Shown: in pieces, positions 8,455 through 34,249 of the stretch
Numbering within the stretch: position 1 is the first letter of the stretch
Layout: each line of letters starts with the position of its first letter
Assembly: GCF_009193185.1 (NCBI RefSeq)
Contig: NZ_VUKF01000002.1
Coordinates: forward strand, 1 to 64,000
From: Georgenia thermotolerans
GTDB lineage: Bacteria; Actinomycetota; Actinomycetes; Actinomycetales; Actinomycetaceae
Direction: 5' to 3'
Length of the DNA stretch: 64,000 bases
Made by a program: the position numbers and the translations under genes
Notes under the pieces: generated by a model
Databases searched by the model: none
Seen by the model: the letters and a program-made list of their open reading frames with translations, nothing else
Told to the model about the DNA's origin: nothing

Positions 8455-10326
<1,872 letters not shown>

Positions 10327-19207: not shown

Positions 19208-19221
19208 ATCGATCCAACAGC
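19208..19221 (-). promoter_or_regulatory. Class B operator-like motif, copy 1
   Basis: On the minus strand it reads GCTGTTGGATCGAT, and the plus strand continues the palindromic core GATCGATC. It is 42 nt upstream of LacI gene 2, so autoregulation is likely. Confidence 0.45.
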
Positions 19222-19415: not shown

Positions 19416-19498
19416 CGACACCGGACGCCATCTGCCTGAATGGGTGTGGTCCACCTCACCGCGCACCGACATCCGGACACCTGTTTCCCGTCCGGGCC

Positions 19499-19512
19499 TG
19501 TAACCGGTTACG
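19499..19512 (+). promoter_or_regulatory. Class C operator palindrome upstream of the TRAP genes
   Basis: TGTAACCGGTTACG contains the perfect 12-bp palindrome GTAACCGGTTAC with a central CG, the classic LacI/GntR-type operator shape. A second copy precedes CoA-transferase 2 (32292-32307). Confidence 0.6.
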
Positions 19513-19643
19513 GTGGCGGACTAGCCCCTCCCGCCGGGGCGGTGATCGAGGCACTGCTGCTGATCGCCGGCCCGGCACCAGATCCGACGCGCACGGGAAA
19601 CCGCCACCGCGCAGCGGCTCATCGACGAGCAGAAGAGGAAACC

Positions 19644-20681
19644 ATGAAGCGCAGCAAGACTCTCTCGATCGCGGCTGTCGTCAGCGCCGCCGCGCTGACC
19701 CTCGCCGCGTGCGGCGGGGGCGGTGACAAGGCGGACGGCAGCGACGGCGCCGCCGCCGCCGACGGCAAGACCCTCCGCCTCGCCATCAACCAGACCGAGG
19801 ACTACCCCTCCACCGTGGCCCTCACCAGCTTCGGCGAGAACCTCTCCGAGGCGACCGACGGCCGCTGGTCCGTCGACGTCTACCCGAACGAGCAGCTCGG
19901 CGCGCAGGCCGAGGCCCTGCAGCTCGTCGCCGACGGCGCGGTCGACCTCGCCGTCGTCGCCGGTCCTCAGCTGGAGAACCTCAACAAGGACTTCGTCGTC
20001 TTCAACCTCCCGACGGTCTTCAAGAGCGTGGAGCACGAGACCTCGGTCATCAACGACCCCGAGATCACCTCCGAGCTGTACTCCTCCCTCGAGGACCAGG
20101 GGATCAGCGTCGTGGGCGGCTTCACCGCCGGCATGCGTGGCGTCTACACGAAGGAAGGCCCCATCAACACGCCGGAGGACCTTGCCGGCATGAAGATCCG
20201 CGTCCAGGAGACCGACACCAACATCCAGATGATCGAGGCCATGGGCGGCAAGGCCACGCCGATGTCCTTCGGTGAGGTGTACACCGCGCTGCAGTCCGGC
20301 GTCATCGACGGCGCCGAGAACGCCGAGCCGTCCTTCGTGACGCAGAAGCACTACGAGGTCGCCAAGTACTTCTCCTACACGGACCACCTCATCAACACCG
20401 ACTACCTCGTCATCAACAGCGACCTGCTGAAGTCGATGTCCGAGGACGACCAGAAGATCTTCCGCGAGCAGTGGGACGGCTTCCTCGACGAGTTCAACGG
20501 CCTGTGGGAGGAGTCCATCTCCACGGCCATCGACGAGGCCAAGGCCGCCGGCGTGACCTTCACCGAGCCCGACAAGGAGGCCTTCGCCGAGAAGCTCGCC
20601 CCGCTGGTCGAGAAGAACATCACCAACGACACGCAGCAGAAGCTCCTCGACGCGACGCGCGCCGCCGCGCCGGCCGCCTGA
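19644..20681 (+). CDS. dctP: TRAP transporter solute-binding lipoprotein (DctP type)
   Basis: 345 residues. The N-terminus is a lipoprotein signal ending LTLAAC, with the lipidated Cys at 23, so the protein is tethered outside the membrane. The DctP family core is visible: the carboxylate-binding arginine in MKIRVQET, then FGEVYTALQSGVIDGAENAEPSF. TRAP receptors bind organic acids; family members of this type include uronate binders. Three LacI-type operator motifs precede the gene, one shared with the glucuronate genes, so uronic or other sugar acids are the likely cargo. AGAGGAAACC precedes ATG 19644. First gene of dctPQM. Confidence 0.92.
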   Translation: MKRSKTLSIAAVVSAAALTLAACGGGGDKADGSDGAAAADGKTLRLAINQTEDYPSTVALTSFGENLSEATDGRWSVDVYPNEQLGAQAEALQLVADGAVDLAVVAGPQLENLNKDFVVFNLPTVFKSVEHETSVINDPEITSELYSSLEDQGISVVGGFTAGMRGVYTKEGPINTPEDLAGMKIRVQETDTNIQMIEAMGGKATPMSFGEVYTALQSGVIDGAENAEPSFVTQKHYEVAKYFSYTDHLINTDYLVINSDLLKSMSEDDQKIFREQWDGFLDEFNGLWEESISTAIDEAKAAGVTFTEPDKEAFAEKLAPLVEKNITNDTQQKLLDATRAAAPAA

Positions 20682-20722: not shown

Positions 20723-21382
20723 TTGAAAGCCGTCACCAGAGTGCTGGACAGGGTCCTGTCCGTCGCCTGCATCATCCTGTTCGCCGTACTCGTGGTGGAC
20801 GTGGTCTGGCAGGTCGCCTCGCGCCAGCTGCTGGGGAACCCCAGCACCTGGAGCGAGGAGGCCGCTCGCTACATCTTCGTCTGGCTCGGCCTCTTCGGGT
20901 CCGCGCTCGTCTTCTCCGAGCGTGGCCACATCGCGGTCGACTTCGTCGTCCGTCTGTTCCCCAAGCCGCTCATGCGCGCGGCGCTGATCTTCGTCCAGCT
21001 CGCGATCATCACGCTGGCCGCCGTCGTCTTCATCTACGGCGGGTGGAAGTACGTCCAGCAGTCCTCGGGACAGCAGCTGTCCGCGCTGCCGTTCACCGTC
21101 GGCACGATGTACACCGTCATGCCGATCACGGGCGTGCTCATCGTCTGGTACGCCCTCACCCACCTCATCGAGGCGCTGCGTGTCCCGGACCCCGCCTCGC
21201 TGCTCGCGGTGGACGAGGAGGCCGAGGCGGCCCTCGCCACGTACGGCGACGACGAGACCGCCGCCATCGCCACCGCCACCTACGGCGCCGGCGACTCCGC
21301 CGCCGCCACCGAGCTCGGCGAGTCCGGCCTGGACGACGACCGTCCTGGCGCGGGCACCGACACCACCCGCCGGGAGGGCTGA
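20723..21382 (+). CDS. dctQ: TRAP transporter small membrane subunit (DctQ type)
   Basis: 219 residues with four membrane helices and the DctQ signatures RQLLGNPSTWSEEAARYIFVWL and a following ERGHIAVD loop. It pairs with DctM to form the membrane part of the importer. The start appears to be TTG 20723; there is no in-frame ATG or GTG nearby and only a weak AGG upstream. A C-terminal tail of about 55 residues, acidic and with two ATYG elements, follows the last helix; most DctQ proteins end soon after it. It ends 2 nt before the dctM start. Confidence 0.88.
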   Translation: MKAVTRVLDRVLSVACIILFAVLVVDVVWQVASRQLLGNPSTWSEEAARYIFVWLGLFGSALVFSERGHIAVDFVVRLFPKPLMRAALIFVQLAIITLAAVVFIYGGWKYVQQSSGQQLSALPFTVGTMYTVMPITGVLIVWYALTHLIEALRVPDPASLLAVDEEAEAALATYGDDETAAIATATYGAGDSAAATELGESGLDDDRPGAGTDTTRREG

Positions 21383-21384
21383 CC

Positions 21385-22698
21385 ATGGACCCCGCAACCC
21401 TTGCCGCGATCATCCTCGTCGTCGGGATCTTCAGCTGCATCGCGCTGGGCGTGCCGATCGCCGTGTCGATCGGGCTGCCCTCGCTGCTGGCCACCATCGC
21501 CGTGCTCGGTTTCGACAGCGCGATCATCGCCGCCCCCCAGCGGATGTTCACCGCGGTGAACAACTTCTCGCTCCTGGCCATCCCCTTCTTCGTCCTCGCC
21601 GGCGTGCTGATGAACAGTGGCGGCATCGCCGGCCGGCTCATCGACGCCGCCAAGGTGATGGTCGGCCGGATGCCCAGCTCCCTGGCGCAGACCAACGTCG
21701 TCGCCAACGCCATGTTCGGCGCCGTCTCCGGCGCGGCGGTCGCCGCCGCGGCGGCCATCGGCTCGGTGATGTCGCCGCGCATGGCCAAGGAGGGCTACGA
21801 CAAGTCCTTCGCCACCGCGGTCAACGTCGCCTCGGCACCCGCGGGCATGCTCATCCCGCCGTCCAACACGCTGATCATCTACTCCCTCGCCTCGAGCACC
21901 TCGATCGCCGCGCTGTTCATGGGCGGTGTCGGCCCCGGTCTGCTGTGGGCGCTGACGTGCGGTGTCGTCGCGTACATCGGGTCGCGCAAGTACGGTGGCC
22001 GGCCGACCACCGACCACCCCGGCCTGAAGCTCTCGCTCCTGGTCATCTGGCGGGCCGTGCCCTCGCTGCTGATGATCGTCATCGTCATCGGCGGCATCCT
22101 CACCGGCCAGTTCACCCCGACGGAGTCGTCGGTGATCGCGGTGGTCTACTGCCTGATCCTCGGCTTCGTCTACCGCACGGTGAAGGTGCGCGAGCTGCCC
22201 GGGATCCTCCTCGACGCCGCGCGCACCACCGCGGTGGTCATGCTCCTGGTGGCCGTCTCCGGCCTGCTGTCCTGGGTCATGTCCTTCGCCCGGATCCCGC
22301 AGCTGATCTCCGAGACCCTGCTCGGCGTCTCGAGCAGCCAGGTGGTGATCATCCTCATCATGACCGCCATCCTCCTGGTGGTCGGCTGCTTCATGGACCC
22401 CGCCCCGGCGATCCTCATCTTCACGCCGATCTTCCTGCCGCTGTGGAAGTCGTTCGGCTACGACCCGATCCACTTCGGTGTGTTCATCACCTTCGCCTTC
22501 TGCGTCGGCGTCATCACGCCACCGGTCGGCAACGTGCTCTTCGTGGGTGCGAGGGTGGCGAACATGCGCGTGGAGCCGGTGATCCGGAAGCTGGTCCCGT
22601 TCTTCGTCGGCCTGGTCGTCGCACTGCTCGTCACGGCCTTCTGGCCCTCGCTCACCACGTGGCTGCCGATCCAGATGGGCCTCATGGCCGCGCCGTGA
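21385..22698 (+). CDS. dctM: TRAP transporter large membrane subunit (DctM type)
   Basis: 437 residues, about twelve membrane segments, the usual DctM length. It has the conserved NSGGIAGRLIDAAKVMVG and ASAPAGMLIPPSN segments and the FTPTESS loop. It is the sodium-coupled permease that accepts the ligand from DctP. ATG 21385 follows GGGAGGG in the end of dctQ. A strong terminator follows the gene, so downstream genes may be expressed less than the transporter. Confidence 0.95.
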   Translation: MDPATLAAIILVVGIFSCIALGVPIAVSIGLPSLLATIAVLGFDSAIIAAPQRMFTAVNNFSLLAIPFFVLAGVLMNSGGIAGRLIDAAKVMVGRMPSSLAQTNVVANAMFGAVSGAAVAAAAAIGSVMSPRMAKEGYDKSFATAVNVASAPAGMLIPPSNTLIIYSLASSTSIAALFMGGVGPGLLWALTCGVVAYIGSRKYGGRPTTDHPGLKLSLLVIWRAVPSLLMIVIVIGGILTGQFTPTESSVIAVVYCLILGFVYRTVKVRELPGILLDAARTTAVVMLLVAVSGLLSWVMSFARIPQLISETLLGVSSSQVVIILIMTAILLVVGCFMDPAPAILIFTPIFLPLWKSFGYDPIHFGVFITFAFCVGVITPPVGNVLFVGARVANMRVEPVIRKLVPFFVGLVVALLVTAFWPSLTTWLPIQMGLMAAP

Positions 22699-22818: not shown

Positions 22819-24069
22819 GTGCAGCAACTGCCCCCGCTCCACCGGCACTGGCTCGAGCACGAGAGCCTTCGCCTGCTCGACTTCGGCCGGGCCTCATGCC
22901 GCGAGGACTCCGGCTTCGGCTGGCTCGACGCCGACGGGCGCCTCACCCCCGGCGAGCCCCAGCACCTCTACATCGCGGGCCGCATGACGCACGTGTACTC
23001 GCTCGGCAGCCTGCTGGGCGTCCCCGGCTGCGCACCGATCGCGGCGCACGGCGTGCGGGTCCTGTCGACCCTCTACCGGGACGCCGAGCACGGTGGGTGG
23101 TTCACCGCGCTCGACGCGTCCGGTCGCCCGCTGAACACCGACAAGGCCGCCTACCCCCACAGCTTCGTCATCCTCGCGGGCGCCTCCGCGAGCATCGCCC
23201 AGGTCGCCGGCGGCGCCGAGCTGCTCGAGGACGCCCTGGCCGTCGTGGACGAGCGGTTCTGGGACGACCGGGACGGCATGGTCGTCGAGCAGTGGGACCG
23301 CGCGTTCACCACGCTGCTCGACTACCGCGGCCTCAACGCCAACATGCACATGCTCGAGGCCTACCTCGCTGCCTTCTCCGCCACGGGGCGGGCGGAGCTG
23401 CTCGAGCGGTCCCTGCGGATCAGTGAGCGCGCCTGCGACGCGGCGCGGGCGCAGGGCTGGCGCCTGCCCGAGCACTTCGACGCTTCTTGGCGGCCCCTCC
23501 TCGGGTTCAACGCCGAGCGGCGCGACGACCCCTTCAAGCCTTACGGCTCCACGGTCGGGCACTGGTTCGAGTGGGCCAGGCTGCTCCTGCTCGTCGAGCA
23601 GGCCTGCGCCGAGGCCGGTCGCGCGGCCCCGGCGTGGCTGCGCGAGTCCGCGCTGGCCCTCTTCGACCTCGGGGTCGCCGAGGGGTGGCGCGCCGACGGT
23701 CGGGACGGCTTCGTCTACACCGTGGACTGGGAGGGCCGCCCCGCCGTGCGCAACCGCCTCCACTGGGTCGCGGCCGAGGCCATCGGGGCCGCGGCGACCC
23801 TGCTGGCGGTGACCGGCGAGCCTCGCTACCGGCACTGGTACGACACGTGGTGGGACTACGTGCGCGCCTACCTCGTGGACACCGACCGGGGTTCGTGGCA
23901 CCACGAGCTCGACGTCGACAACCGGCCGTCGAGCCTGATCAAGAAGGGCAAGGCGGACGTCTATCACGCCCTCCAGGCCACCCTCGTCCCGCTGCTGCCG
24001 GTCCGGCCCGGCCTCGCTCGCGCCGTCGCCGACGCCGCCGACCGGCCGGCGCCCCAGTCCGTCCGCTGA
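22819..24069 (+). CDS. AGE-family aldose-ketose isomerase/epimerase
   Basis: 416 residues of the N-acylglucosamine 2-epimerase superfamily, an (alpha/alpha)6 barrel. The catalytic-histidine neighbourhoods are seen in LNANMHMLEAYLAA and KKGKADVYHALQATL, which place it nearer to YihS-type mannose/fructose (or sulfoquinovose) isomerases than to renin-binding-protein epimerases. The start is GTG 22819 with AGGAA upstream. It begins a four-gene rightward group with an oxidoreductase, a NagB-like protein and LacI regulator 3. The substrate is probably the sugar brought in by the TRAP system or made from it; I cannot name it. Confidence 0.85.
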   Translation: MQQLPPLHRHWLEHESLRLLDFGRASCREDSGFGWLDADGRLTPGEPQHLYIAGRMTHVYSLGSLLGVPGCAPIAAHGVRVLSTLYRDAEHGGWFTALDASGRPLNTDKAAYPHSFVILAGASASIAQVAGGAELLEDALAVVDERFWDDRDGMVVEQWDRAFTTLLDYRGLNANMHMLEAYLAAFSATGRAELLERSLRISERACDAARAQGWRLPEHFDASWRPLLGFNAERRDDPFKPYGSTVGHWFEWARLLLLVEQACAEAGRAAPAWLRESALALFDLGVAEGWRADGRDGFVYTVDWEGRPAVRNRLHWVAAEAIGAAATLLAVTGEPRYRHWYDTWWDYVRAYLVDTDRGSWHHELDVDNRPSSLIKKGKADVYHALQATLVPLLPVRPGLARAVADAADRPAPQSVR

Positions 24070-24131: not shown

Positions 24132-25286
24132 ATGCGCACGCTGCGCATCGCGATGAACGGCGTCACCGGACGCATGGGATACGGGCAGCACCTCCGCAAC
24201 GCCATCCTGCCCATCCGGGACGCCGGTGGCGTGGTCCTGCCCGACGGCTCCACGGTGCAGGTGGAGCCCGTCCTGGTGGGCCGGCGGGCGGACCGGCTGC
24301 AGGAGATCGCCGCTGCGCACGGCATCGAGCGGTGGAGCACCGACCTCGACGCGGTGCTGTCCGACGTCGACGTCTACTTCGACGCCCAGGCCACCGCGGG
24401 CCGCGCCGCGGCGGTGCGCACGGCGATCGCGGCCGGCAAGCACGTCTACGCCGAGAAGCCCTCCGCCCAGACCGCGACGGAGGCGTTCGAGCTGGCCCGG
24501 CAGGCGGAGGCGGCCGGGGTGACGACCGGCGTCGTCCACCACATGCTCTACCTCCCGGGGCCGGCCGCGCTGCGCCGGCTCGCCGCGGAGGGGTTCTTCG
24601 GACGGATCCTGTCGGTGCGTCTGGAGTTCGGGTACTGGGTGTTCGACGGCGAGCACCGGGCGGGCCAGCGGCCGAGCTGGAACTACCGGGCCGAGGACGG
24701 CGGGGGCATCACCGCCGACATGTTCACGCACCTCAACTACCTCGTCGAGCGCATCGTCGCGCCGGTGCGCGGGGTCTACGCCGTGGCGACGACGCACGTG
24801 CCGCGGCGGTGGGACGAGCAGGGCGAGCCCTACGCCGCGACGGCGGACGACGCCGTCTACAGCACGCTGGATCTCGACGGCGGGGCCGTGGCGGTGGTCA
24901 ACGCCTCCTGGGGGGTGCGGATGTTCCGTGACGAGGTGCTGCAGATCCAGGTCGACGGGACGGCCGGGTCCGCGGTGGCGGGGTTCCAGAGCTGCGTCAC
25001 CCAGCACGCCTCGGTCACCCCGGCGATGTCCGGCGACACGGCCCGGCCGCTGTCGGACGAGCGGACGCGGTGGGCGGCCGTCCCACCCTCCGGGCCGGCG
25101 GCGAGCCCGTTCCGGCTGCAGTGGGAGGACTACCTGCGCGACGTCGCCGCCGGGCGCCCCCACGCCAACGATCTGGGGTCGGCGGCCCGGGGGGTCCAGC
25201 TCGGGGAGCTGGCGCTCACCTCCTCCGGGAGCCGGCAACGTGTCGCGGTGCCGGCGCTGGTGCCGGCAGGAAGAGGCACCCGATGA
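24132..25286 (+). CDS. Gfo/Idh/MocA family NAD(P)-dependent oxidoreductase
   Basis: 384 residues. The N-terminal Rossmann part has MNGVTGRMG and the family EKP motif (K109 in YAEKPSAQ), followed by the substrate domain with GGGITADMFTHL, where an acidic or histidine residue normally completes catalysis. The family oxidises or reduces sugars, inositols and sugar phosphates. GAAGGAAGGAG precedes ATG 24132. The last codons overlap the start of the next gene (ATGA). Together with the isomerases and DUF993 protein nearby it implies a keto-sugar intermediate (inference). Confidence 0.88.
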   Translation: MRTLRIAMNGVTGRMGYGQHLRNAILPIRDAGGVVLPDGSTVQVEPVLVGRRADRLQEIAAAHGIERWSTDLDAVLSDVDVYFDAQATAGRAAAVRTAIAAGKHVYAEKPSAQTATEAFELARQAEAAGVTTGVVHHMLYLPGPAALRRLAAEGFFGRILSVRLEFGYWVFDGEHRAGQRPSWNYRAEDGGGITADMFTHLNYLVERIVAPVRGVYAVATTHVPRRWDEQGEPYAATADDAVYSTLDLDGGAVAVVNASWGVRMFRDEVLQIQVDGTAGSAVAGFQSCVTQHASVTPAMSGDTARPLSDERTRWAAVPPSGPAASPFRLQWEDYLRDVAAGRPHANDLGSAARGVQLGELALTSSGSRQRVAVPALVPAGRGTR

Positions 25287-26041
25287 GCGGGCTCCGGACC
25301 CGGGTGTTCCCCGACCGCGCGGCGATGGGGGCCGCCGCCGCGGCCGACGTGGCCGCGGAGCTGCGCGCTCGCCTGGCCCGGCAGCCTGAGGTGCGGATGG
25401 TGTTCGCTGCCGCACCGAGCCAGCAGGAGATGCTCGACCGCCTGGTGGCCGCGGAGGGCATCGACTGGCGGCGGGTGACCGCGTTCCACATGGACGAGTA
25501 CCTCGGCCTGGCCCCGGAGGCGCCGGAGCGCTTCGCGCGCTGGCTGGACGTTGCGCTGTTCGGCCGCGTACCGTTCGGCGCCGTGCACCGTCTGGATCCC
25601 GGCGGCGACCCCGAGGGCGAGGCCGCCCGCTACAGCGCGCTCCTGGCCGAGGCACCGCTCGACGTCGTCTGCCTGGGCATCGGGCAGAACGGCCACCTCG
25701 CCTTCAACGACCCGCCGGTCGCCGACCTCGAGGACCCTCTGGCGGTCAAGGTCGTCGACCTCGACGAGAGCTGCCGGCGCCAGCAGGTCGACGACGGCTG
25801 CTTTCCCTCGCTCGACCGCGTGCCGCGCCGCGCCATCACCCTGACCATCCCGCGGCTGCTGGACGCCGCCCGGCTGTTCTGCGTGGTCCCCGGGAGCGCC
25901 AAGCGGGTCGCGGTCCGCGCGGCGCTGACCGAGCCCGTGGGCCCGGCCCACCCGGCCACGGCGCTGCGCACCCACCCGGACGTCACGCTCTACCTGGATG
26001 CCGACTCCGCGCCCGAGCGGCTCACGCCGGCCGAGGCGTGA
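25283..26041 (+). CDS. NagB/6-phosphogluconolactonase-fold protein with altered active site
   Basis: 252 residues of the glucosamine-6-phosphate deaminase/lactonase fold. FHMDEYLGL gives D71, the residue equivalent to E. coli NagB D72. The next catalytic block reads GIGQNGHLAFNDP: H138 is kept, but N136 stands where NagB has D141 and D143 where it has E148. The phosphate loop VPGSAKRVAVRAAL is present. It is therefore a diverged subfamily and should not be called a deaminase without evidence; a sugar-phosphate isomerase or lactonase role in the local pathway is possible. It overlaps the dehydrogenase gene by ATGA. Confidence 0.8.
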   Translation: MSGLRTRVFPDRAAMGAAAAADVAAELRARLARQPEVRMVFAAAPSQQEMLDRLVAAEGIDWRRVTAFHMDEYLGLAPEAPERFARWLDVALFGRVPFGAVHRLDPGGDPEGEAARYSALLAEAPLDVVCLGIGQNGHLAFNDPPVADLEDPLAVKVVDLDESCRRQQVDDGCFPSLDRVPRRAITLTIPRLLDAARLFCVVPGSAKRVAVRAALTEPVGPAHPATALRTHPDVTLYLDADSAPERLTPAEA

Positions 26042-26075
26042 GCGCACCGCGGGGCCTCGGGACGGGGCGGGAGCA

Positions 26076-27077
26076 GTGAGCAGGTCCAGACCGGACACGG
26101 TGACCGCACGGTCGGTCGCCCGGGAGGCCGGCGTGTCGGTGGCCACCGTCAGCCGGGTGATGGCCGGCAGCGAGAAGGTCACCGCCGAGCGCCGCACGCA
26201 GGTCCTCGCCGCCGCCGAGCGGCTGGGCTACCGGCCCAACGCCATGGCCCGGAGCCTGGCCACGGGCCGCTCACGGTCCGTCGGGGTCGTCGTGCCGAAC
26301 CTGTCGAACCCCTACTTCTACGACGTCATCCGCGGCATCGGCCGGGCCAGCGCGGAGGACGGCTACCGGATGGTCGTCACCGACTCGATGGAGGACCCGG
26401 CCGCGGAGCGGGCGCTCGTCGACGACCTCATGCGGTACGTCGACGCGCTGGTGCTCGTGGGCCCCCGCGAGGACCACGAGCTGCTCGACGAGCTCGCCGG
26501 CGAGACCAAGCCCGTGGTGATGCTCATCGGGCCGCGCTGGGTCACGCCGCTGCCCGACGTCACCGTGGACAACCTGGGCGGGATGCAGGCCGTCTACCGC
26601 CACCTCGCCGAGCTGGGGCACCGCACGGTCGCCTACCTCTCGGGCCCGCCGGCGTCAGCCCAGAACGCGGTGCGCCTGCGCGCCGTGGCCGAGGCGGAGC
26701 GGCTGGGCATGACCGTCACGGTGGTCCCGGCCGGCGGGACCATCGATGCGGGCCTGGACGCCACGGACGCCGCCCTGGAGCACCGGCCGACGGCGATCGT
26801 GGGCTTCAACGACCTCGTCGCGCTGGGCGCGCTGCACCGGCTCGAGCAGCTGGGCATCCGCGTGCCGGAGGACGTGTCGCTGACCGGGTTCGACGACATC
26901 GTGTTCAGCGCCTACTCCTCGCCGCGGCTGACCACCGTGCGCACCCCGCGCGAGGAGCTGGGCCGGGAGGGCTGGAGGCTGCTGCACGGGAGGATGGGCG
27001 GCGCGCCGGTGGCCTCGCCGGCCCCGCTGCCCGCCCAGCTGGTGGTGAGGGACTCCACCGCTCCACCGCCCCGCTGA
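26076..27077 (+). CDS. LacI-family regulator 3
   Basis: 333 residues. The helix-turn-helix (SVAREAGVSVATVSRVMAGS) begins near residue 12, followed by the full effector domain (VVVPNLSNPYFYDVIRGI; VGFNDLVALGAL). The start is GTG 26076, with GGGAG very close upstream; this is weak, so translation may be coupled to the previous gene, which ends 34 nt before. Its most likely targets are the class C palindromes at 19499-19512 and 32292-32307, which flank the catabolic block that contains it (inference from position). Confidence 0.88.
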   Translation: MSRSRPDTVTARSVAREAGVSVATVSRVMAGSEKVTAERRTQVLAAAERLGYRPNAMARSLATGRSRSVGVVVPNLSNPYFYDVIRGIGRASAEDGYRMVVTDSMEDPAAERALVDDLMRYVDALVLVGPREDHELLDELAGETKPVVMLIGPRWVTPLPDVTVDNLGGMQAVYRHLAELGHRTVAYLSGPPASAQNAVRLRAVAEAERLGMTVTVVPAGGTIDAGLDATDAALEHRPTAIVGFNDLVALGALHRLEQLGIRVPEDVSLTGFDDIVFSAYSSPRLTTVRTPREELGREGWRLLHGRMGGAPVASPAPLPAQLVVRDSTAPPPR

Positions 27078-27122: not shown

Positions 27123-27968
27123 TCAGTGGGCGGTGTCGGGGGCGGGGAGGCGGGCCCAGCGGTCGGCGACGAGGTCGACGACGTCCACGGGGTTCTCGGC
27201 CCACCAGCGGTCGGAGAGCACCTCGATCTCGAACAGGCCGGTGTAGCCGTGACGGCGGGCCATCCCGATGGTGCCGGTCAGGTCGATGCACCCGTCGCCG
27301 ATCATCCCGCGGCTCGACAGGTGCCCGCCGAGGGGCAGCACCCAGTCGGACAGGTGCACCCCCAGCACCCGCTCGCCCGCGCGGGCGAGCTCCCGTTCCA
27401 GGGCGTGGTCGAACCAGCAGTGGTAGATGTCGACGACGAGGCCGAGGGCGTCGTCGTCGAGCTCGTCGATGACGTCGTTCGCCTGCTCCAGGGAGCACAC
27501 CACGCTCCGGTCGGCCGCCATCATCGGGTGCAGCGGCTCCAGGCCGAGCCGCACCCCGGCGCCACGGGCGTGGTCCAGGCAGGCGGCGAGCCCCTCGGCC
27601 ACGTGCCGTCGCGCGTCGGCCAGGGTGACGCCGTCGGCGCGGGTGGGGGAGGGCAGGCCCCCGGGCAGCACGACCAGCGTGGGCGCACCGATCGCGGCGG
27701 CGACGTCGATCGCCTCTTTCGTCGCGTCCACCGCACGGCGCCGCTCGCCGGCGTCGTCGGCGGGGAAGAAACCCCCACGGCACACGCTGCTCACCGCGAG
27801 GCCGGAGTCGGCGATCATCCGCGCCGCGGCCTCCGGCCCCACCGGCGCGATGGTCTCCAGCCAGGGCGCGACGCCGCCGAAGCCGCGGGCCCGGGCCCGG
27901 GCGAGCAGGTCCGCGAGCGGCAGGTCCTTGACCGTCCACGCGTTGAGGCTCGCCTGTGCCAGCTCCAT
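27123..27968 (-). CDS. TIM-barrel sugar isomerase/epimerase (xylose isomerase-like)
   Basis: 281 residues of the AP-endonuclease-2/xylose isomerase-like TIM-barrel family. Metal-ligand neighbourhoods are visible in GLEPLHP, VVDIYHCW, VHLSDW and LFEIEVLS, spaced as in hydroxypyruvate isomerase and tagatose epimerase relatives. The likely role is isomerisation or epimerisation of a small keto sugar or sugar acid. It is the last gene of the five-gene leftward operon and its ATG overlaps the TGA of the DUF993 gene, so the two are translationally coupled. Confidence 0.85.
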   Translation of the reverse strand: MELAQASLNAWTVKDLPLADLLARARARGFGGVAPWLETIAPVGPEAAARMIADSGLAVSSVCRGGFFPADDAGERRRAVDATKEAIDVAAAIGAPTLVVLPGGLPSPTRADGVTLADARRHVAEGLAACLDHARGAGVRLGLEPLHPMMAADRSVVCSLEQANDVIDELDDDALGLVVDIYHCWFDHALERELARAGERVLGVHLSDWVLPLGGHLSSRGMIGDGCIDLTGTIGMARRHGYTGLFEIEVLSDRWWAENPVDVVDLVADRWARLPAPDTAH

Positions 27969-29164
27969 CAGGCCCCCTCGATCCCGAGGGCGGCGAGCCA
28001 GCGGCGCACCACGTGGGCCGTGCGCTCGGGGTCGACGAGGATCCGCGCCTGCCCGGCGAGCTCGACCAGGCGGGCCAGGTGCAGCACGGAGCGGCCCGCC
28101 TCCAGGCCGCCGAGCATGCGCGGGTGGCCCTGGTAGCCCTGGAGGTAGGAGACGAAGGCGACCCCCGTCTTGTAGTAGCTGGTCGGGGCGGCGAAGACGT
28201 GACGGGAGAGCTCGACGGTCGGGCCGAGAAGCTCGCGGTAGCCGGCCTCGTCACCCACGTCGAGGCGGCGGAGCGCCGCGGCGGCGGTCGGGGCGCACAG
28301 CGCGAAGGCGCCGAGCAGCGCGTCGCTGTGACCCTGCTCGTCCCCGGCGATGAGGTCGAGGTAGTTGTAGTCGTCCCCGGTCAGCACGCGCACGCCGTCC
28401 GGGAGCGCCCGGCGCATCGCGATCTCGCGGTCGGCGTCGAGGAGGGACATCTTGATGCCGGCGACCTTCCCGGCGCTGTCGGCGATGACGGCGCGGACCA
28501 CCTCGGTGGCGGCGTCGAGCGAGCCTCCGCCCCAGTAGCCGCGCAGCTGCGCATCGAACGCCGCGCCGAGCCAGTGCAGCACGACGGGCCGCCGCGCGGA
28601 CGCCAGCACCGTCCCGTACACGGCCGCGTAGTCCTCCGGCCCCCGCGCCGCCCGGGCGAGCTCGCGGCTGCACATGAGCACGGCGGTACCGCCGCGGGAC
28701 TCCACGAAGTCCAGCTGCTCGAGGTAGGCGTCGGTGACGGCGGCGAGATCCGCCGGCCCGGTGAGCTGGTCGGTGGCCACGCCGACGACGACGCGCCCGT
28801 CCGGGCTGCCGTAGAGCTCGGTGCACCGGGCGAGGGAGGCCTCGACGAGCGTCTGGACGTCCGGCCAGGTGATGCCCATCCCGCGCTGCGCGGTGTCCAT
28901 CGCCTCGGCGACGCCGAGCCCGGTGGCCCAGACCCGCTCGCGGACGGCGAGCGTGGCGGGCCAGTCCACCTGCCCCGGCGCGGCCGGCGTGGCACTGGTC
29001 AGCGGGTCGGCGACGACGTGGGCGGCCGCATAGGCCACCCGGGAGCGCGGCGGGGCGCCTCGCTCCGCCCCCTCCGGGGCGGGCAGCAGCTCGACCTCGG
29101 CGAGCGTGCCGTCCGGGCGCGGCAGGGCCACGGTCGTGGCCCGCCTCAGGCTGGTGGTAGTCAC
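27968..29164 (-). CDS. DUF993 family protein (dihydrodipicolinate synthase-like aldolase fold)
   Basis: 398 residues. I recognise DUF993, a group related to the DapA/NAL aldolases: a TIM-barrel core with VGVATDQLTG, the lysine-bearing strand GKVAGIKMSLLD where DapA-type enzymes form their Schiff base, and TGDDYNYLDLIAGD. No member I know of has an assigned reaction. In this operon it could cleave or form a carbon-carbon bond in a keto-acid intermediate (inference). ATG 29164; 12 nt separate it from the SDR gene. Confidence 0.8.
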   Translation of the reverse strand: MTTTSLRRATTVALPRPDGTLAEVELLPAPEGAERGAPPRSRVAYAAAHVVADPLTSATPAAPGQVDWPATLAVRERVWATGLGVAEAMDTAQRGMGITWPDVQTLVEASLARCTELYGSPDGRVVVGVATDQLTGPADLAAVTDAYLEQLDFVESRGGTAVLMCSRELARAARGPEDYAAVYGTVLASARRPVVLHWLGAAFDAQLRGYWGGGSLDAATEVVRAVIADSAGKVAGIKMSLLDADREIAMRRALPDGVRVLTGDDYNYLDLIAGDEQGHSDALLGAFALCAPTAAAALRRLDVGDEAGYRELLGPTVELSRHVFAAPTSYYKTGVAFVSYLQGYQGHPRMLGGLEAGRSVLHLARLVELAGQARILVDPERTAHVVRRWLAALGIEGA

Positions 29165-29176
29165 CGTGTCTCCTTC

Positions 29177-29914
29177 TCAGACCAGGGCGTAGCCGCCGTC
29201 GACGGGCAGCGTGTGCCCGGTGACGAAGCCGGCGGCGTCGGACAGCAGGAACAGGGCGGGTCCGGTCACGTCCGCGGGCCGGCCGAAGCGGCCCATGGGC
29301 GTGCGCGCGAGGATCCGGTCGTGGTTCTCGGGCCGGGCGAGCATCTCGGCGGTCATCTCGGTGACGATGTACCCCGGTGCGATGGCGTTGATCCGCGGCC
29401 CGGTGCCGCCCAGCTCGGCGGCCAGGCCGCGGACGAGGTGGGACAGGGCCGCCTTGACCGAGCCGTAGGGCACGATCCCGGGCACGGCGCGGTCCGCGGA
29501 CATCGAGGAGATGGCGAGGACGCTGCCCGGGCGGTCGTCGGTGCCGCGCTGGAGGGCGCCGACCAGCGCCCGGACGGTGCGGTAGAAGGACGAGAGGTTC
29601 ACGTCGAGCAGCCGGGCCCAGTCGGCCTCGGCGATGTCGACCGCCGCGGTGCGCACCTGGATGCCGGCCGCGACGACGAGGTGGTCCAGGCCGCGGCCGT
29701 CCAGCCACGCCGTCAGCTCGCCGGGGAAGTCCGGCGCCGCGACGTCGGCCTGCAGGGCGGCCTGGGAGACGGCCGCCGCGACGTCCGTGACAGCCGGGTT
29801 GCGGTCGACGAACAGCACCTCGGCGCCCGCTCCGGCGAGGGCCTGGGCGATGTCGCGTCCGATGCCGCTCGCCGCGCCGGTGACGATGGCGGTGCGCCCG
29901 GCGAACTCGCTCAT
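29177..29914 (-). CDS. Short-chain dehydrogenase/reductase
   Basis: 245 residues with a complete classical SDR set: TGAASGIG (12-19) for the cofactor, an ISSMS strand carrying the catalytic Ser, YGSVK with Tyr and Lys, and the C-terminal VDGGYAL. An aspartate in the second strand (LFVDRNP) favours NAD. The substrate is unknown; in context a hydroxy-acid, 3-hydroxyacyl-CoA or sugar acid is plausible. The ATG overlaps the TGA of the crotonase gene, indicating coupled translation. Confidence 0.9.
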   Translation of the reverse strand: MSEFAGRTAIVTGAASGIGRDIAQALAGAGAEVLFVDRNPAVTDVAAAVSQAALQADVAAPDFPGELTAWLDGRGLDHLVVAAGIQVRTAAVDIAEADWARLLDVNLSSFYRTVRALVGALQRGTDDRPGSVLAISSMSADRAVPGIVPYGSVKAALSHLVRGLAAELGGTGPRINAIAPGYIVTEMTAEMLARPENHDRILARTPMGRFGRPADVTGPALFLLSDAAGFVTGHTLPVDGGYALV

Positions 29915-30693
29915 CGGGCGGCCGCCTTCGCGGCCGCCCGCGCCGCCTTGGCGGCGAGGAAGTCGGCCATCCGGCCGGCGAACTCCTCGCCGGGGAGGGT
30001 GTGCTCGCTGAGCTCGGTGAGCGCGGCGGCGGAGGCCTCCACGCCATCGGCGAGCAGCTCACGGTTGAGCCAGCGCTTGGAGCGGGCGACGGCGTCCGGG
30101 GCGCCCGCGGCGATGCCGGCCAGGACACGGGCGAGCGTCGGCTCGAGCTCGTCGGCGCCGACCGCGTAGGTGGCCAGGCCGAGCTCCTTGGCCTCGGCGT
30201 GGCCGATGACGTCGCCCGCCAGCGCCAGGCGGGCGCCGAGCCGGCGGCTCGAGGCGGCGGGCATGGCGCCGAAGTAGACGGTGGCCCACACGCCGATCTT
30301 CGTCTCCGGGAGCCCGAACGTGGCGTCGGGGCCGGCGATGACGATGTCGCTCCAGGTCACGAGCTCCACCCCGCCGCCCAGCGCCGAGCCCTCGACGACC
30401 GAGACGACCGGGAGGGGGGAGGCGGCGATGGCGCGGAAGGTCGGCAGCATGCCGGTGACGAAGTAGTCGACGCCGGCCTGCGGGGTGTCCAGGGCGCGCA
30501 TGGCGTCGATGTCGTTGCCGGCGCAGAACGACCGGGCGTCCCCGCGCAGCACGATCGCGCGGTTGGCCGGGTTCTCGGCGGCCCGCTCGACGGCCTCGCG
30601 CAGCGCCGTCCAGGCGGCGAGGTCCATGGAGTTGCGCTTGGCGGGCCGGTCGAACTGGACGACGACGTGGTCGTCGTGCTGGGTGGTGATCAT
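29911..30693 (-). CDS. Enoyl-CoA hydratase/isomerase (crotonase) family protein
   Basis: 260 residues with the crotonase oxyanion-hole segments FCAGNDI and ALGGGVEL and the second catalytic-region motif GLPETKIG, so both glutamate positions of true hydratases appear present. It acts on acyl-CoA thioesters, supplied presumably by the CoA-transferase encoded 13 nt upstream. The C-terminus is an Ala/Lys-rich helix. Placing an acyl-CoA enzyme next to an SDR and sugar-type isomerases is unusual for simple sugar catabolism. Confidence 0.9.
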   Translation of the reverse strand: MITTQHDDHVVVQFDRPAKRNSMDLAAWTALREAVERAAENPANRAIVLRGDARSFCAGNDIDAMRALDTPQAGVDYFVTGMLPTFRAIAASPLPVVSVVEGSALGGGVELVTWSDIVIAGPDATFGLPETKIGVWATVYFGAMPAASSRRLGARLALAGDVIGHAEAKELGLATYAVGADELEPTLARVLAGIAAGAPDAVARSKRWLNRELLADGVEASAAALTELSEHTLPGEEFAGRMADFLAAKAARAAAKAAAR

Positions 30694-30706
30694 GGTTCTC
30701 TCCTCC

Positions 30707-32260
30707 TCACGCCACGGGCGCGAGCTGGTCGGTGGTGGCGAGCGGGGCGAAGCAGGCGGCGGGCATCGGGGCGACGGCCCGGACGAGGGGCCGGAAGTCG
30801 AGGTGGGCGAGGATGTCGCGCTCGATGTCGATCCCGGGGGCCACCTCGATGAGCTCCAGGCCGTCGGCGGTGAGCTGGAACACGCACCGCTCCGTGACGT
30901 ACAGCGCGCGGCGGCCCTGGGCGGCGGCGTAGGGGCCGGCGTAGGTGACCTCCTCGACCTCGGGCACGAACTTGGCCACCTGGCCCTCCTGGTCGATGAC
31001 CAGCCGACCGTCCTCGAGGTGGACGCGCAGGCCCTTGGCCGTGAAGGAGCCGCAGAAGACGGCGGTGCGGGCGTTCTGGCTGATGTCCACGAACCCGCCG
31101 GGTCCCATGACCTTGCCGCCGAAGGCGGAGACGTTCACGTTGCCGTGCCGGTCGGTCTGGGCCATGCCCAGGCAGGTGACATCGATGAGGCCGCCGGCGA
31201 AGATGTCGAACTGGACGGCCGAGCTGACCCGGGCGCTGGGCCCCGTGGCCATCCCGAACAGGTCACCGAGCTCGGGCACCCCGTTGTACAGGCCCTGCTC
31301 GACGGCGAGCTGCACCGTGCCCAGGCGCCCCTCCTCGCGCAGCACCTTCCCGACGTCCGCGCTCATGCCGAAGCCGAGGTTGAGCACGTCGCCCGCCCCG
31401 ACCTCCATGGCGGCCCGGCGCGCCACCACCGCCCGGATCGGGTCGGTGATGCCCGCGGGCCCCTCGAGGCTCGCGGGGGCGACGGGTGCGAACAGTGCCG
31501 GGTCCTCCTCACAGACGTAGGTCTGGGTCTGCTCCGGCACCACCACCACGTAGTCGACGAGCGCCCCGGGCAGGAAGACCCGCCGGGGGTCGATCCGCTC
31601 CACCCGCCGCTTGACCTGGACGATGACCACGCCGCCGTTGCCGCGCGCAGCCTGGGCGGCCTCGAGGGCGTCGAGGATGGCGGGCTCGGCGTCAGCCCCG
31701 ATGTTGCCCTGGTCGTCCACCTCGGTGCCGCGCACGATGGCGACGTCGACCTGGAGCGGCTTGTAGCGCAGGAACTCCTCGCCGTCGAGCTCGAGGACCT
31801 CGACGAGCTCCTCGGTGGCGGCACCGTTGGCGCGACAGCCCTTCAGACGCGGGTCGGCGAAGGTGTGCAGTCCCGTCCGGGTGATGTAGCCGGGCCGGCG
31901 GGCGCCGGACTCGCGGTACAGGTGGGTGATCACCCCGGCGGGCATGACGTACGCCGCGATCTTCTCCTCGGCGGCGAGCTGCATCATCGAGGCGGACCAG
32001 GTCCAGTGCCCGCCGATGACCTTGCGGACCATGCCCTCGTGCGCGAAGCCGTTGACGCCGCGGGAGCCGCGGTCGCCCACGCCGAGGGCGTGGACGAGGG
32101 TGAGGTCGCGCGGCGAGGCGCCGTCCAGGAAGCGCCGCTCGACCGCGGCGATGACCGCCGTGGGTTCGAGCATGCCGCCGCCGTTGGCCGCCAGGGCGAC
32201 CGTCGCGCCGTCGCGCACGTGCGCGGCCGCTTCCTCCGCGGTGAGGAACTGCACCGTCAT
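30707..32260 (-). CDS. Fused acyl-CoA:carboxylate CoA-transferase 2
   Basis: 517 residues, same two-half architecture as CoA-transferase 1 (TGLHTFADPRL, VPEQTQTYV, LNLGFGMSADV and the active-site Glu in VEQGLYNGVPE), but clearly diverged from it. First gene of the operon CoA-transferase - crotonase - SDR - DUF993 - TIM-barrel isomerase. The start is ATG 32260 behind GGAGGT. The class C palindrome lies 32 nt upstream, in promoter position. The probable role is activation of the pathway acid to its CoA ester. Confidence 0.88.
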   Translation of the reverse strand: MTVQFLTAEEAAAHVRDGATVALAANGGGMLEPTAVIAAVERRFLDGASPRDLTLVHALGVGDRGSRGVNGFAHEGMVRKVIGGHWTWSASMMQLAAEEKIAAYVMPAGVITHLYRESGARRPGYITRTGLHTFADPRLKGCRANGAATEELVEVLELDGEEFLRYKPLQVDVAIVRGTEVDDQGNIGADAEPAILDALEAAQAARGNGGVVIVQVKRRVERIDPRRVFLPGALVDYVVVVPEQTQTYVCEEDPALFAPVAPASLEGPAGITDPIRAVVARRAAMEVGAGDVLNLGFGMSADVGKVLREEGRLGTVQLAVEQGLYNGVPELGDLFGMATGPSARVSSAVQFDIFAGGLIDVTCLGMAQTDRHGNVNVSAFGGKVMGPGGFVDISQNARTAVFCGSFTAKGLRVHLEDGRLVIDQEGQVAKFVPEVEEVTYAGPYAAAQGRRALYVTERCVFQLTADGLELIEVAPGIDIERDILAHLDFRPLVRAVAPMPAACFAPLATTDQLAPVA

Positions 32261-32291: not shown

Positions 32292-32307
32292 ATGTAACCG
32301 GATACAT
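32292..32307 (-). promoter_or_regulatory. Class C operator palindrome before CoA-transferase 2
   Basis: ATGTAACCGGATACAT has outer halves ATGTA/TACAT that are perfect inverted repeats and a central CCGG. It agrees with the TRAP site at TGTAACCGG-TAC. It is 32 nt from the ATG of the operon. Confidence 0.6.
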
Positions 32308-32503: not shown

Positions 32504-32509
32504 GTGGCC

Positions 32510-33724
32510 GTGCTCGCAGCCCAGCCCCTCTCCGTGCTCGTCGCCCCCGACTCCTTCAAGGGCTCGGCCAGCGCCGAGGAGGTCTGCGCGGCGGTCGCCG
32601 CCGGCGTCCGCGGGGTCTGCCCGGACGCCCGGGTGACCACGGTGCCGATGGCGGACGGGGGCGAGGGCAGCCTCGACGCCCTCATGGCCGCCTGGCACGT
32701 GCGGCCCACCGAGGTGACCACCGTCGACGCCCTGGGCCGGCCCTGCACCGCGCGCCTGGGCCTGGCCCCCGGCGGCCGGACCGCCGTGGTCGAGCTGGCG
32801 GAGGCGTCCGGGCTGCCACGCGTGAGCGACCGGCCGCCCGCGCCGCTCGACGCTCACACGGTCGGGGCCGGCGAGCTCGCCCGCGCCGCGCTCGACGCGG
32901 GGGCCGAGGAGGTGCTCGTGCTGGTGGGAGGCTCGGCCAGCACGGACGGCGGCACCGGCATCCTCCACGCCCTGGGCGTCCGCTTCCGGGACGCCGCGGG
33001 CGAGGCCGTCCGGCCGGGCGGCCGGCACCTGGCACGCATCGCGACCGTCGACGTCACCGGGCTGCACCCGCGGGCGCGGGCCGTGCGCTGGCGCATCGCC
33101 GTCGACGTCGACAACCCGCTGACCGGCCCGCGCGGGGCGGCCGCCGTCTTCGGCCCGCAGAAGGGCGCTGACCGCGACGACGTGGCCGCGCTGGAGCGTG
33201 GCCTGCAGAGCTACGCGCGTGTCCTCGCCACCGCGGCCGGGTGCGAGCCCACGAGCCTCACCACGCTTCCCGGCGGGGGAGCCGCCGGAGGCGTACCGGT
33301 CGGCCTGCACGCCCTGCTCGGCGCCGAGCTGGCGCCGGGCTCCCGCCTGGTGGCCGACGCCGTCGGCCTGGCCGAGGCGATGACCGGTGCGGACCTCGTG
33401 ATCACCGGCGAGGGGGCGTGCGACGACCAGTCCCTCCACGGCAAGGTCGTCGACCTCGTCGCGACCACGGCCCGTGGCCTGCCGCGCCCGCCCGCGGTCG
33501 TCGTCCTCGCCGGGGCGGTGCGGGTGGGCCAGGACGAGCTGGCCGGGCACGGCGTCGCCGCGGCGCTCTCGATCGCTCCGGGGCCCGCCACGCTCGCCGA
33601 GCTCACCGGCCGGACGGCGGAGCTGCTGGCGGAGCGGGCCGGGGCGGTGACCGGTCTGTACCTCGCCGGTCGGGCCGCCGCGCAGCGCACGGTCGAACCG
33701 GCCGCCGTCCCGCCCGGGGACTGA
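32510..33724 (+). CDS. Glycerate kinase
   Basis: 404 residues of the GarK/GlxK-type glycerate kinase family: APDSFKGSASAEEVCAA at the N-terminus, PMADGGEGS, then VGGSASTDGGTG and GAAGGVPVGLHALLGAEL. It phosphorylates D-glycerate to 2- or 3-phosphoglycerate, feeding three-carbon acids from sugar-acid breakdown into glycolysis. This fits the neighbouring uronate and unknown acid pathways. It is transcribed away from the CoA-transferase operon. Start chosen from the leaderless promoter. Confidence 0.92.
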   Translation: MLAAQPLSVLVAPDSFKGSASAEEVCAAVAAGVRGVCPDARVTTVPMADGGEGSLDALMAAWHVRPTEVTTVDALGRPCTARLGLAPGGRTAVVELAEASGLPRVSDRPPAPLDAHTVGAGELARAALDAGAEEVLVLVGGSASTDGGTGILHALGVRFRDAAGEAVRPGGRHLARIATVDVTGLHPRARAVRWRIAVDVDNPLTGPRGAAAVFGPQKGADRDDVAALERGLQSYARVLATAAGCEPTSLTTLPGGGAAGGVPVGLHALLGAELAPGSRLVADAVGLAEAMTGADLVITGEGACDDQSLHGKVVDLVATTARGLPRPPAVVVLAGAVRVGQDELAGHGVAAALSIAPGPATLAELTGRTAELLAERAGAVTGLYLAGRAAAQRTVEPAAVPPGD

Positions 33725-33752
33725 GGTCCCGGGGGAGAGCTGGTGGCCTGCG

Positions 33753-33758
33753 TAGACT
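33753..33758 (+). promoter_or_regulatory. -10 box of a leaderless promoter (HbpS-like gene)
   Basis: TAGACT lies 8 nt before ATG 33767; no ribosome-binding site is present in between. Confidence 0.55.
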
Positions 33759-33766
33759 CCCCGCCC

Positions 33767-34249
33767 ATGACCACCGCCACCACCGAGCTCTACGAGCGCA
33801 TCCTCGCCGACGAGGCCGAGATCGTCTTCCCGTCCTTCGACCGGCAGGACGCCTGGGAGCTGGGCTGCCAGATGCGCGCGGCCGCGCTCGCCCGGTCCCT
33901 GCCGATCGTCATCGGCATCGTGCTCGGCCAGCAGCAGGTGTTCCGCTCGGCGCTGGACGGTTCGAGCGCGGACAACGACGCCTGGCTCGCGCGGAAGACC
34001 GCCGTCGTCCTGCGGTACGGGCGCAGCTCGATGGGCGTGGGGGAGCTGTTCCGGGTCCAGGGCCGCGTCTTCGAACGTGACAGCCGCCTGGACCCGGACG
34101 CCTTCGCCGCCCACGGCGGCGTGTTCCCGGTGCAGGTGGCCGGCACCGGCGTCGTGGGGGCGGTGGGCGTGTCCGGCCTTCCTCAGGCGGAGGACCATGC
34201 CTTCGTCGTCGGTCAGCTCCGCGAGTTCCTCGCGGCCCGCCGCCGCTAG
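33767..34249 (+). CDS. HbpS/UPF0303-like small protein
   Basis: 160 residues resembling the UPF0303 branch of the heme-degrading/HbpS-like domain family (FDRQDAWELGCQM; ALDGSSADNDAWLARK; GVVGAVGVSGLPQAEDH). Members bind heme or small oxidised ligands or act as sensor components; no enzymatic residue set is certain. It has no signal peptide. It lies between glycerate kinase and a MarR gene on the same strand, each with its own leaderless promoter. Confidence 0.75.
   Translation: MTTATTELYERILADEAEIVFPSFDRQDAWELGCQMRAAALARSLPIVIGIVLGQQQVFRSALDGSSADNDAWLARKTAVVLRYGRSSMGVGELFRVQGRVFERDSRLDPDAFAAHGGVFPVQVAGTGVVGAVGVSGLPQAEDHAFVVGQLREFLAARRR

Follow-up and report, generated by a model that had tools for sequence, protein, structure and literature searches.

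The Ali/Bad pathway of cyclohexanecarboxylate degradation employs a coenzyme A (CoA) ligase, an acyl-CoA dehydrogenase, the crotonase BadK, the short-chain dehydrogenase/reductase (SDR) BadH and the ring hydrolase BadI. For sugar acids, CoA-bound intermediates have been proposed in the deoxyribonate catabolism of Klebsiella michiganensis, which, in the available part of the report, involves activation by a CoA-synthetase and cleavage by a thiolase and ends in glycerate (PMC6365646). The levoglucosan pathway LgdA/B1/B2/C, as far as the accessible part of its description goes, consists of a 3-dehydrogenase and further enzymes that act on the keto sugar (PMC7676230). Here we analyzed the first 64,000 nucleotides of contig NZ_VUKF01000002.1 of Georgenia thermotolerans (the window, 64 kb of a 4.64-Mb genome in 116 contigs; window G+C content 74.6%), in which five genes on the minus strand at 27123-32260 encode a CoA-transferase (CoAT1), a crotonase, an SDR, a DUF993 protein and a TIM-barrel protein. 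Pfam matches confirm the families named in the first-pass annotation, which had been made from the letters of the window without database searches. The system probably carries out a variant form of CoA-linked sugar-acid catabolism organized around the uncharacterized DUF993 family.

The five-gene operon is real, is recurrent in distant phyla and has an operator in common with the facing tripartite ATP-independent periplasmic (TRAP) transporter operon. Its genes are packed as tightly as originally claimed, the successive junctions being a 13-nt gap, a 4-nt ATGA overlap, a 12-nt gap and a 1-nt overlap, with Shine-Dalgarno-like purine-rich stretches ahead of CoAT1 and of both starts that follow gaps. 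The LacI-type operator ATGTAACCGGATACAT lies in the intergenic region from which CoAT1 and a glycerate kinase gene on the plus strand diverge. Even when 3 mismatches are allowed, the full 16-mer matches nothing in the window other than itself (0.02 expected). A shorter form, TGTAWCCGGWTACA, has three sites with at most 1 mismatch in the whole genome, the one ahead of CoAT1 being exact, compared with none for the reversed pattern. Sites of this form precede both the CoA operon and the TRAP operon, and shared control therefore holds for two promoters. The proposal that the facing genes share the operator is thus borne out for a single promoter on that side, the TRAP one (1 mismatch). The LacI gene that ends next to the operon is the natural candidate for the regulator and probably acts on both operators. 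The third genomic site, also with 1 mismatch, is on another contig (C50, 10241-10254).

A survey of gene neighborhoods shows that the set also occurs elsewhere, so the first-pass annotation is not refuted on the ground that the set would be confined to this locus. CoA-transferase, crotonase, SDR, DUF993 and TIM-barrel genes lie on one strand in the window order at an alphaproteobacterial locus of the class of Rhizobium nepotum (L273; loci are numbered with the prefix L), and Paraburkholderia sp. 22B1P (L210) has the same set divided, with crotonase and CoA-transferase on one strand and SDR, DUF993 and TIM barrel on the other. L274 keeps the window order with two extra genes between crotonase and SDR. 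A DUF993 match is also present in NC_003037, a plasmid record of Sinorhizobium meliloti 1021. The loci of S. meliloti pSymA and Paracoccus versutus (L149) carry in addition an acyl-CoA dehydrogenase, an electron-transfer flavoprotein, a glycerate kinase and aldo/keto reductases, those of Rhodococcus USK13 and Mycobacterium aquaticum combine CoA-transferase, acyl-CoA dehydrogenase, SDR, DUF993, TIM barrel and LacI, and a variant in Octadecabacter has a MaoC-type protein and no listed crotonase. Further variants were found in Janthinobacterium, Rhizobium TH2 and Microvirga. Acyl-CoA dehydrogenases are present in some other CoA-type loci and in none of the scanned window genes; several CoA-type loci have aldehyde dehydrogenases, and several have sugar ATP-binding cassette (ABC) importers instead of TRAP.

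Scanning public genomes with a DUF993 alignment confirmed at least 590 relatives, and the 80 best-scoring loci entered the survey. Together with 119 of the loci found in further genomes (59 actinobacterial, 25 alphaproteobacterial, and groups of 17 and 18) and 15 hand-picked plasmid loci, they make up the 214 DUF993 loci examined by tblastn. The plasmid loci were chosen partly for listed matches to CoA-transferase and DUF993; counts are also given for the 199 loci without them. Genes were called by tblastn at 1e-20 in large families, and loci L314-L316, which have both CoA-transferase and DUF993, stand outside the 214.

Contrary to the idea that the five genes are the unit, the conserved unit is DUF993, the TIM barrel and a dehydrogenase, and the CoA genes form an exchangeable module. 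In 195 of 214 loci the TIM-barrel gene is no farther than 10 kb from DUF993, and within 4 kb 182 loci have a Gfo/Idh/MocA oxidoreductase of the subfamily found in the window (window-type Gfo). CoA-transferase occurs within 10 kb in 13 loci. A window-type Gfo within 4 kb is absent from all 13 but present at 182 of the 201 others (Fisher p 1.6e-12). Without plasmids the counts are 0/5 and 175/194 (p 1.7e-5). An SDR is found within 5 kb in 10 of the 13 CoA-transferase loci and, without plasmids, in 4/5 versus 9/194 others (p 5.4e-5). A DUF993-TIM core thus seems to be entered through one of two alternative modules, either the window-type Gfo or the CoA/SDR genes. Four of the 13 loci have Gfo-family genes of other subfamilies (L148 and L214, both 1,5-anhydrofructose-reductase-like, and L141 and L059). 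Unlike all 13, the window holds both the window-type Gfo and the CoA modules, plus a second CoA-transferase, CoAT2. That the facing genes form one acidic-carbohydrate pathway with the operon is consequently supported for Gfo. For the other facing genes, matches at E 1e-20 in 215 loci numbered 1 for the AGE isomerase, 0 for the NagB-like protein, 0 for the TRAP binding protein and 2 for the TRAP permease (L040 also has a TRAP pair at a looser limit), so their inclusion in one pathway derives from the common regulation and close spacing seen in this genome only. The AGE and NagB genes appear to be local additions.

In three alphaproteobacterial plasmid loci (L144, L146 and L215) the Gfo-DUF993-TIM triad is accompanied by importers of the tripartite tricarboxylate or ABC type and by an enolase-family gene; such a gene is also near DUF993 in 10 of the 25 alphaproteobacterial genome loci. 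These companions suggest acid substrates for the Gfo version too.

The view that the pathway ends in glycerate by way of the adjacent kinase gains support from the recurrence of glycerate kinase as a neighbor: 35 of the 214 loci have the gene no more than 10 kb from DUF993, as do 15 of the 59 actinobacterial loci. Among 42 genomes of the order (1.8-5.3 Mb), 38 have one to three kinase matches, some being pieces of one gene, and 4 have none, so that about 1% of loci would be expected to have a kinase nearby by chance. At a background of 1.2%, which we set from this count, the binomial p for the enrichment in the actinobacterial set is 3.7e-16.

The DUF993 protein matches PF06187 with 512 bits (cut-off 24). 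Its AlphaFold (AF2) model, with a predicted local distance difference test score of 87, resembles the deposited structure 4dnh (SMc04132, hypothetical) with a VIA Z score of 54.8 and a sequence match of E 1.3e-112. That structure was released in 2012 with no function given in the deposit. The model has the (beta/alpha)8 fold of DapA, aligning about 290 residues with many DapA chains at Z 29-30 and a root-mean-square deviation of about 2.5; DUF993 is longer than DapA at both ends, model residues 40-379 spanning the match. A profile alignment (hhalign) with a DapA-family protein of the same genome places K238 on the lysine, H197 on the tyrosine and TGDD on SGDD at a low probability (6.6%, E 0.0055). 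K238, H197, D90, T91 and Q93 are invariant in 95 of 95 DUF993 rows, a set in which every row of 330 residues or more was retained if it was of the CoA type or the remaining non-Gfo type, while the Gfo-type rows were thinned at random. In the DapA/N-acetylneuraminate lyase superfamily G[TS]xGE is the pyruvate-carboxylate motif, and by eye its place is occupied in DUF993 by MDTAQ. Applying the motif roles generally given for that superfamily, we read DUF993 as a putative Schiff-base lyase that may have lost the usual pyruvate-carboxylate pocket. In a genome of the same order, DUF993 is in three pieces in different frames (G008:C1:379764-380957), reflecting a decayed gene or assembly errors.

The structures nearest to the TIM barrel are 3qc0 (E 7e-59) and 3ju2, which is SMc04130 (E 7.8e-59). 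Residues E144, D180, H183, D208 and E249 are conserved in all 190 rows that remained after the removal of loci containing a stop or matching over fewer than 220 residues, and residue 205 is H or Q, a pattern that fits a predicted metal-dependent isomerase. Scores against isomerase models are all far below cut-offs (5-keto-L-gluconate epimerase 43 bits, hydroxypyruvate isomerase 32 and 2-oxotetronate isomerase 28). In S. meliloti ml47, the TIM-barrel gene behind DUF993 has no entry in the plasmid gene table and is matched in two tblastn pieces (L143, about 10163-11000); it is perhaps broken.

CoAT1 matches the YdiF structure 2ahu over nearly its full length (E=1e-116). The glutamate of EXG and the sequence GxGGF are motifs of family I CoA-transferases; CoAT1 is a single-chain alpha-beta fusion, and EQG and GxGGF are present in all six CoA-transferases compared, CoAT1 included, its own version being GPGGF. 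Residues E110 and E130, which have a catalytic role in crotonases, are present in the crotonase and in the other members of a set of six. The SDR carries YxxxK and TGxxxGIG. Searches of the PDB at strict limits (1e-40, 1e-25) gave no match for the SDR or the crotonase. Among the plasmid matches listed, the best relatives of CoAT1 (56.7% identity) and of the SDR (50.8%, the next being 42.8%, with at least 5000 matching records) lie in the same Rhodococcus USK13 DUF993 locus. For the crotonase, 1409 plasmid records matched, and the 15 that were listed include no close relative, the best having 40% identity over two thirds of the length.

With middling confidence, we favor a reading in which an acidic carbohydrate is broken down by a modular pathway whose CoA-dependent version is encoded by the operon, with DUF993 and the TIM barrel cleaving and isomerizing a keto intermediate and glycerate as the end product. 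It builds on the observed genes, shared operator, recurrence, Gfo/CoA alternation, DapA fold with invariant lysine and kinase enrichment; from these we infer the substrate, each reaction, the order of the reactions and the role of the regulator. After uptake, which in this genome would be through the TRAP system, the acid would be charged with CoA by the YdiF-type transferase and then hydrated or dehydrated by the crotonase. The SDR would oxidize a hydroxyl to a ketone, a step that in most loci the Gfo enzyme may perform instead on the free sugar or sugar acid. DUF993 would form a Schiff base through K238 and cleave the chain by a retro-aldol reaction, and the metal-dependent TIM barrel could isomerize the keto intermediate or the three-carbon product. 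One product would become glycerate and be phosphorylated by the glycerate kinase, and the LacI regulator would govern the TRAP and CoA operons through the one operator. DUF993 stands at the center of a widespread catabolic module. The CoA variant, if true, would be a further entry of CoA chemistry into sugar-acid catabolism and would provide testable functions for Gfo, DUF993, TIM-barrel and CoA genes across many annotated genomes.

Several observations weigh against this reading. The CoA version is rare, with 5 of 199 loci once the hand-picked plasmids are removed. The crotonase of the window is just 27-33% identical to those of five other DUF993 loci, so it may be a separate recruitment, and no crotonase match was obtained at the Rhodococcus USK13 and M. 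aquaticum loci. The operator pattern, allowing up to 2 mismatches, is absent from six other CoA loci (L059, L141, L045, L273, L094 and L142), L274 having one match with 2 mismatches. The kinase is weakly linked to the CoA genes, being present in 5 of 13 CoA-transferase loci versus 30 of 201 others (p 0.04), and without plasmids the difference is not significant (1/5 versus 27/194, p=0.54). The p-values given for the loci throughout are optimistic, since the loci share ancestry and are not independent. On the enzymatic side, the residue alignment of DUF993 to DapA is of low probability, and the motif G[TS][TSN]GE is found in 0 of 95 DUF993 rows; aldolase chemistry assigned by analogy with DapA may therefore mislead.

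It is possible, with clearly lower probability, that the locus encodes two half-pathways. Gfo or SDR, DUF993 and the TIM barrel would then split a keto-sugar acid in two. One product would be a hydroxypyruvate-like three-carbon compound that is isomerized and reduced to give glycerate; the other, an aldehyde or acid, would be consumed by CoA-transferase and crotonase, which would not act first. The 182 loci with a window-type Gfo, none of which has a CoA-transferase within 10 kb, speak for this reading, as do the weak similarity of the TIM barrel to hydroxypyruvate isomerase and other isomerase models and two loci, L158 (models below cut-off) and L145, in which a 2-hydroxyacid-dehydrogenase-family gene and a glycerate kinase are both no more than 10 kb away. 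The aldehyde dehydrogenases at several CoA-type loci are in line with it too, but a GMC oxidoreductase and an aldehyde dehydrogenase beside CoA-transferase would equally fit production of the acid for activation. Against it, all 13 CoA-transferase loci lack the window-type Gfo, which is easier to reconcile with an exchanged entry route than with an appended tail.

A more doubtful extension of the CoA-dependent pathway makes DUF993 a new class I aldolase without a pyruvate donor. In the CoA version it would act at the end of an Ali/Bad-like series of CoA charging, desaturation, hydration and SDR oxidation and open or split an acid that is polyhydroxylated and might be carbocyclic or anhydro. 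This would be a general bacterial route, ending in glycerate, for sugar-like compounds without a reactive anomeric carbon such as carbasugars, cyclitol acids and 1,5-anhydro sugars. The sole hint of a carbocyclic substrate comes from two loci. In L149 and L141 the best model for the acyl-CoA dehydrogenase is acryloyl-CoA reductase, far below cut-off, and the second is cyclohexane-1-carbonyl-CoA dehydrogenase, with scores at half its cut-off or less; one neighboring alcohol dehydrogenase of L141 has an inosose-dehydrogenase-like match below cut-off.

The genes around the operon are listed with it in Table 1.

Table 1. Positions of the operon, its operators and neighboring genes in the window.
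Feature	Position	Strand	Basis
CoAT2, second YdiF-type CoA-transferase	16432-18057	-	Pfam; 58% identity to L148, 57% to L149 CoA-transferases, 41% to CoAT1
LacI gene accompanying CoAT2	18138-19217	-	
TRAP solute-binding protein	19440-20681	+	DctP; nearest solved structure 4n91; start, in our reading, more likely near 19644
Second operator-like site	19499-19512	.	1 mismatch; upstream of TRAP operon and binding protein
TRAP permease DctM	21043-22698	+	DctM
AGE-family sugar isomerase, nearest YihS	22819-24069	+	2rgk, 2afa, 2zbl, 7ag4 at E 7e-106 to 1e-102
Gfo/Idh/MocA oxidoreductase, DUF993-linked subfamily	24132-25286	+	Pfam; nearest solved structure 3oqb, E=1.5e-102
NagB-like protein	25283-26041	+	PF01182; glucosamine-6-phosphate deaminase models all below cut-off
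LacI-family regulator	25998-27077	+	Pfam LacI; 45% identity to LacI of Rhodococcus USK13 locus
Xylose-isomerase-like TIM barrel, likely sugar (acid) isomerase/epimerase	27123-27968	-	Pfam AP_endonuc_2
DUF993 protein, candidate DapA-fold Schiff-base lyase/aldolase (K238)	27968-29164	-	PF06187
SDR dehydrogenase	29177-29914	-	Pfam adh_short_C2
Crotonase/enoyl-CoA hydratase-like protein	29911-30693	-	Pfam ECH_1
CoAT1, first operon gene, single-chain family I CoA-transferase, YdiF type	30707-32260	-	Pfam CoA_trans
LacI-type operator ATGTAACCGGATACAT, between CoAT1 and glycerate kinase	32292-32307	.	31 nt above CoAT1 start
Glycerate kinase family gene	32504-33724	+	TIGR00045, 372 bits (cut-off 168); PF02595
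Heme-degrading-domain protein behind kinase	33743-34249	+	NF002696, 175.8 bits (cut-off 146)

The best NCBIfam model for the AGE gene is D-mannose isomerase (456 bits, below the cut-off of 600), as against E 1e-102 for the YihS/sulfoquinovose isomerase structure 7ag4. A gene named as a heme-degrading-domain protein, like the one behind the kinase here, adjoins glycerate kinase and DUF993 in Microvirga (L316). CoAT2 was not mentioned in the first-pass annotation; its subtype occurs beside DUF993 in several proteobacterial loci (rhizobial, Paracoccus). Among the plasmid matches listed, CoAT2 relatives reach 59% identity, several of these records also having a DUF993 match; in others, including two Escherichia coli plasmids, the relative lies in a cluster without an annotated DUF993 gene. 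An E. coli accessory cluster without an annotated DUF993 (L313, 12001-17700) consists of LacI, a CoA-transferase (57% identical to CoAT2), a crotonase, an Nramp-type transporter and an FAD-dependent oxidoreductase. It has partial matches in 825 of 5426 genomes, with at least 80% of the cluster in 546, and in strain BRG214 the matched stretch also has ISEcp1 and CTX-M-14 annotations. A glucuronide cluster at 6716-16354 of the window comprises two glucuronide-symporter relatives (below cut-off), UidA (865 bits), LacI, UxaC and a mannitol-dehydrogenase-family oxidoreductase; UidA and UxaC both score above model cut-offs. LarE, an ATP-dependent sacrificial sulfur transferase (271 bits, above cut-off), is encoded on the minus strand at 5717-6637.

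That the locus extends this glucuronide cluster is an unlikely reading. The TRAP system would import a hexuronate, the AGE enzyme would isomerize it and the CoA operon would degrade the hexuronate or its aldarate as an alternative to UxaC/UxuB. It draws on UidA, UxaC and the symporter relatives next door and on the TRAP binding protein, whose nearest structures, 4n91, 4p1l and 4n8y, we take to be uronate-bound (4n91 with glucuronate). The near absence of AGE, NagB and TRAP genes from the 215 loci argues against it, as do the sugar ABC importers that take the place of TRAP in several CoA-type loci.

As for the history of the locus, DUF993 is carried by 93 of 396 genomes of the window's order and by 25 of 289 alphaproteobacterial genomes; in the order to which Polaromonas belongs the count is 20 of 220, and in that of M. 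aquaticum 91 of 249. It was found in none of 20 listed genomes of the same family as the window. A CoAT1 relative at E 1e-60 is present in 15 of 396 genomes drawn from the phylum, one being that of the window and the other 14 labeled just as of the same phylum. When the presence of a nearby CoA-transferase is mapped onto a quick maximum-likelihood tree of the 95 DUF993 rows, 6 changes are needed, with at least 4 of them forced by starred branches, compared with 12.4 in shuffles. The DUF993 row of the window, left unlabeled, groups with L059, L141 and L045, apart from the proteobacterial CoA loci. Acquisition by transfer is a likely origin. The least probable reading, that CoA-transferase, crotonase and SDR genes from unrelated fatty or hydroxy-acid degradation joined a Gfo-DUF993-TIM sugar locus by chance or recent mosaic formation in this genome only, is in line with the few CoAT1 relatives (the other 14 outside the window's order), the 20 DUF993-free genomes of the family and the divergent crotonase, but is disfavored by L273, where order and strand are both kept, by L210, which has all five genes, by the operator shared with the TRAP operon and by the fact that SDR and CoAT1 have their best listed plasmid relatives in a single DUF993 locus.

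Compared with described systems, the locus has deposited relatives in SMc04132 (4dnh), SMc04130 (3ju2) and 3oqb for DUF993, the TIM barrel and Gfo, which are titled uncharacterized protein or plain oxidoreductase. Literature searches returned no paper for DUF993 or SMa1406 and nothing related for six further SMa tags; in the available parts of the literature SMc04130-04135 are genes listed without a substrate, and titles and abstract openings found for the gene set reveal no such pathway. We set aside canonical inositol and levoglucosan dehydrogenases and aldarate-type isomerases, whose dedicated models score far below cut-offs. The importers did not point to a particular sugar either: for the ABC binding proteins of L141 and L211 the closest structure is 2rjo, with no ligand named. 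DUF993 has the fold of the DapA/N-acetylneuraminate lyase superfamily (Z about 30), and the low-probability profile alignment would put K238 and TGDD at the lysine and SGDD positions; it differs in the lack of the GTTGE-type motif (95/95), in having His197 aligned with Tyr and in its longer ends. The order of chemistry would be that of Ali/Bad, whereas DUF993 and the TIM barrel take the place of BadI and no acyl-CoA dehydrogenase is present among the scanned window genes. The levoglucosan pathway is similar in having a 3-dehydrogenase that acts with further enzymes on a keto sugar and differs, in the accessible part of its description, in having no DUF993 or CoA step (PMC7676230); with the levoglucosan dehydrogenase model LgdA (NF052479, cut-off 650), the Gfo protein of the window reaches 60 bits. 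The deoxyribonate pathway as such was set aside, given that DUF993 and the TIM barrel are present and that no thiolase is found among the scanned genes of 11964-33724, the stretch to which the thiolase search was confined. The available part of the Klebsiella report names no DUF993 or TIM barrel, and here DUF993 would be the candidate for the cleaving enzyme (PMC6365646). The same source describes CoA-bound intermediates, a beta-hydroxyacyl-CoA dehydrogenase, a CoA-transferase proposed to convert glyceryl-CoA to glycerate and a glycerate kinase (PMC6365646), and CoA-transferase, dehydrogenase and glycerate kinase occur together in the window as they do in the Klebsiella-type route.

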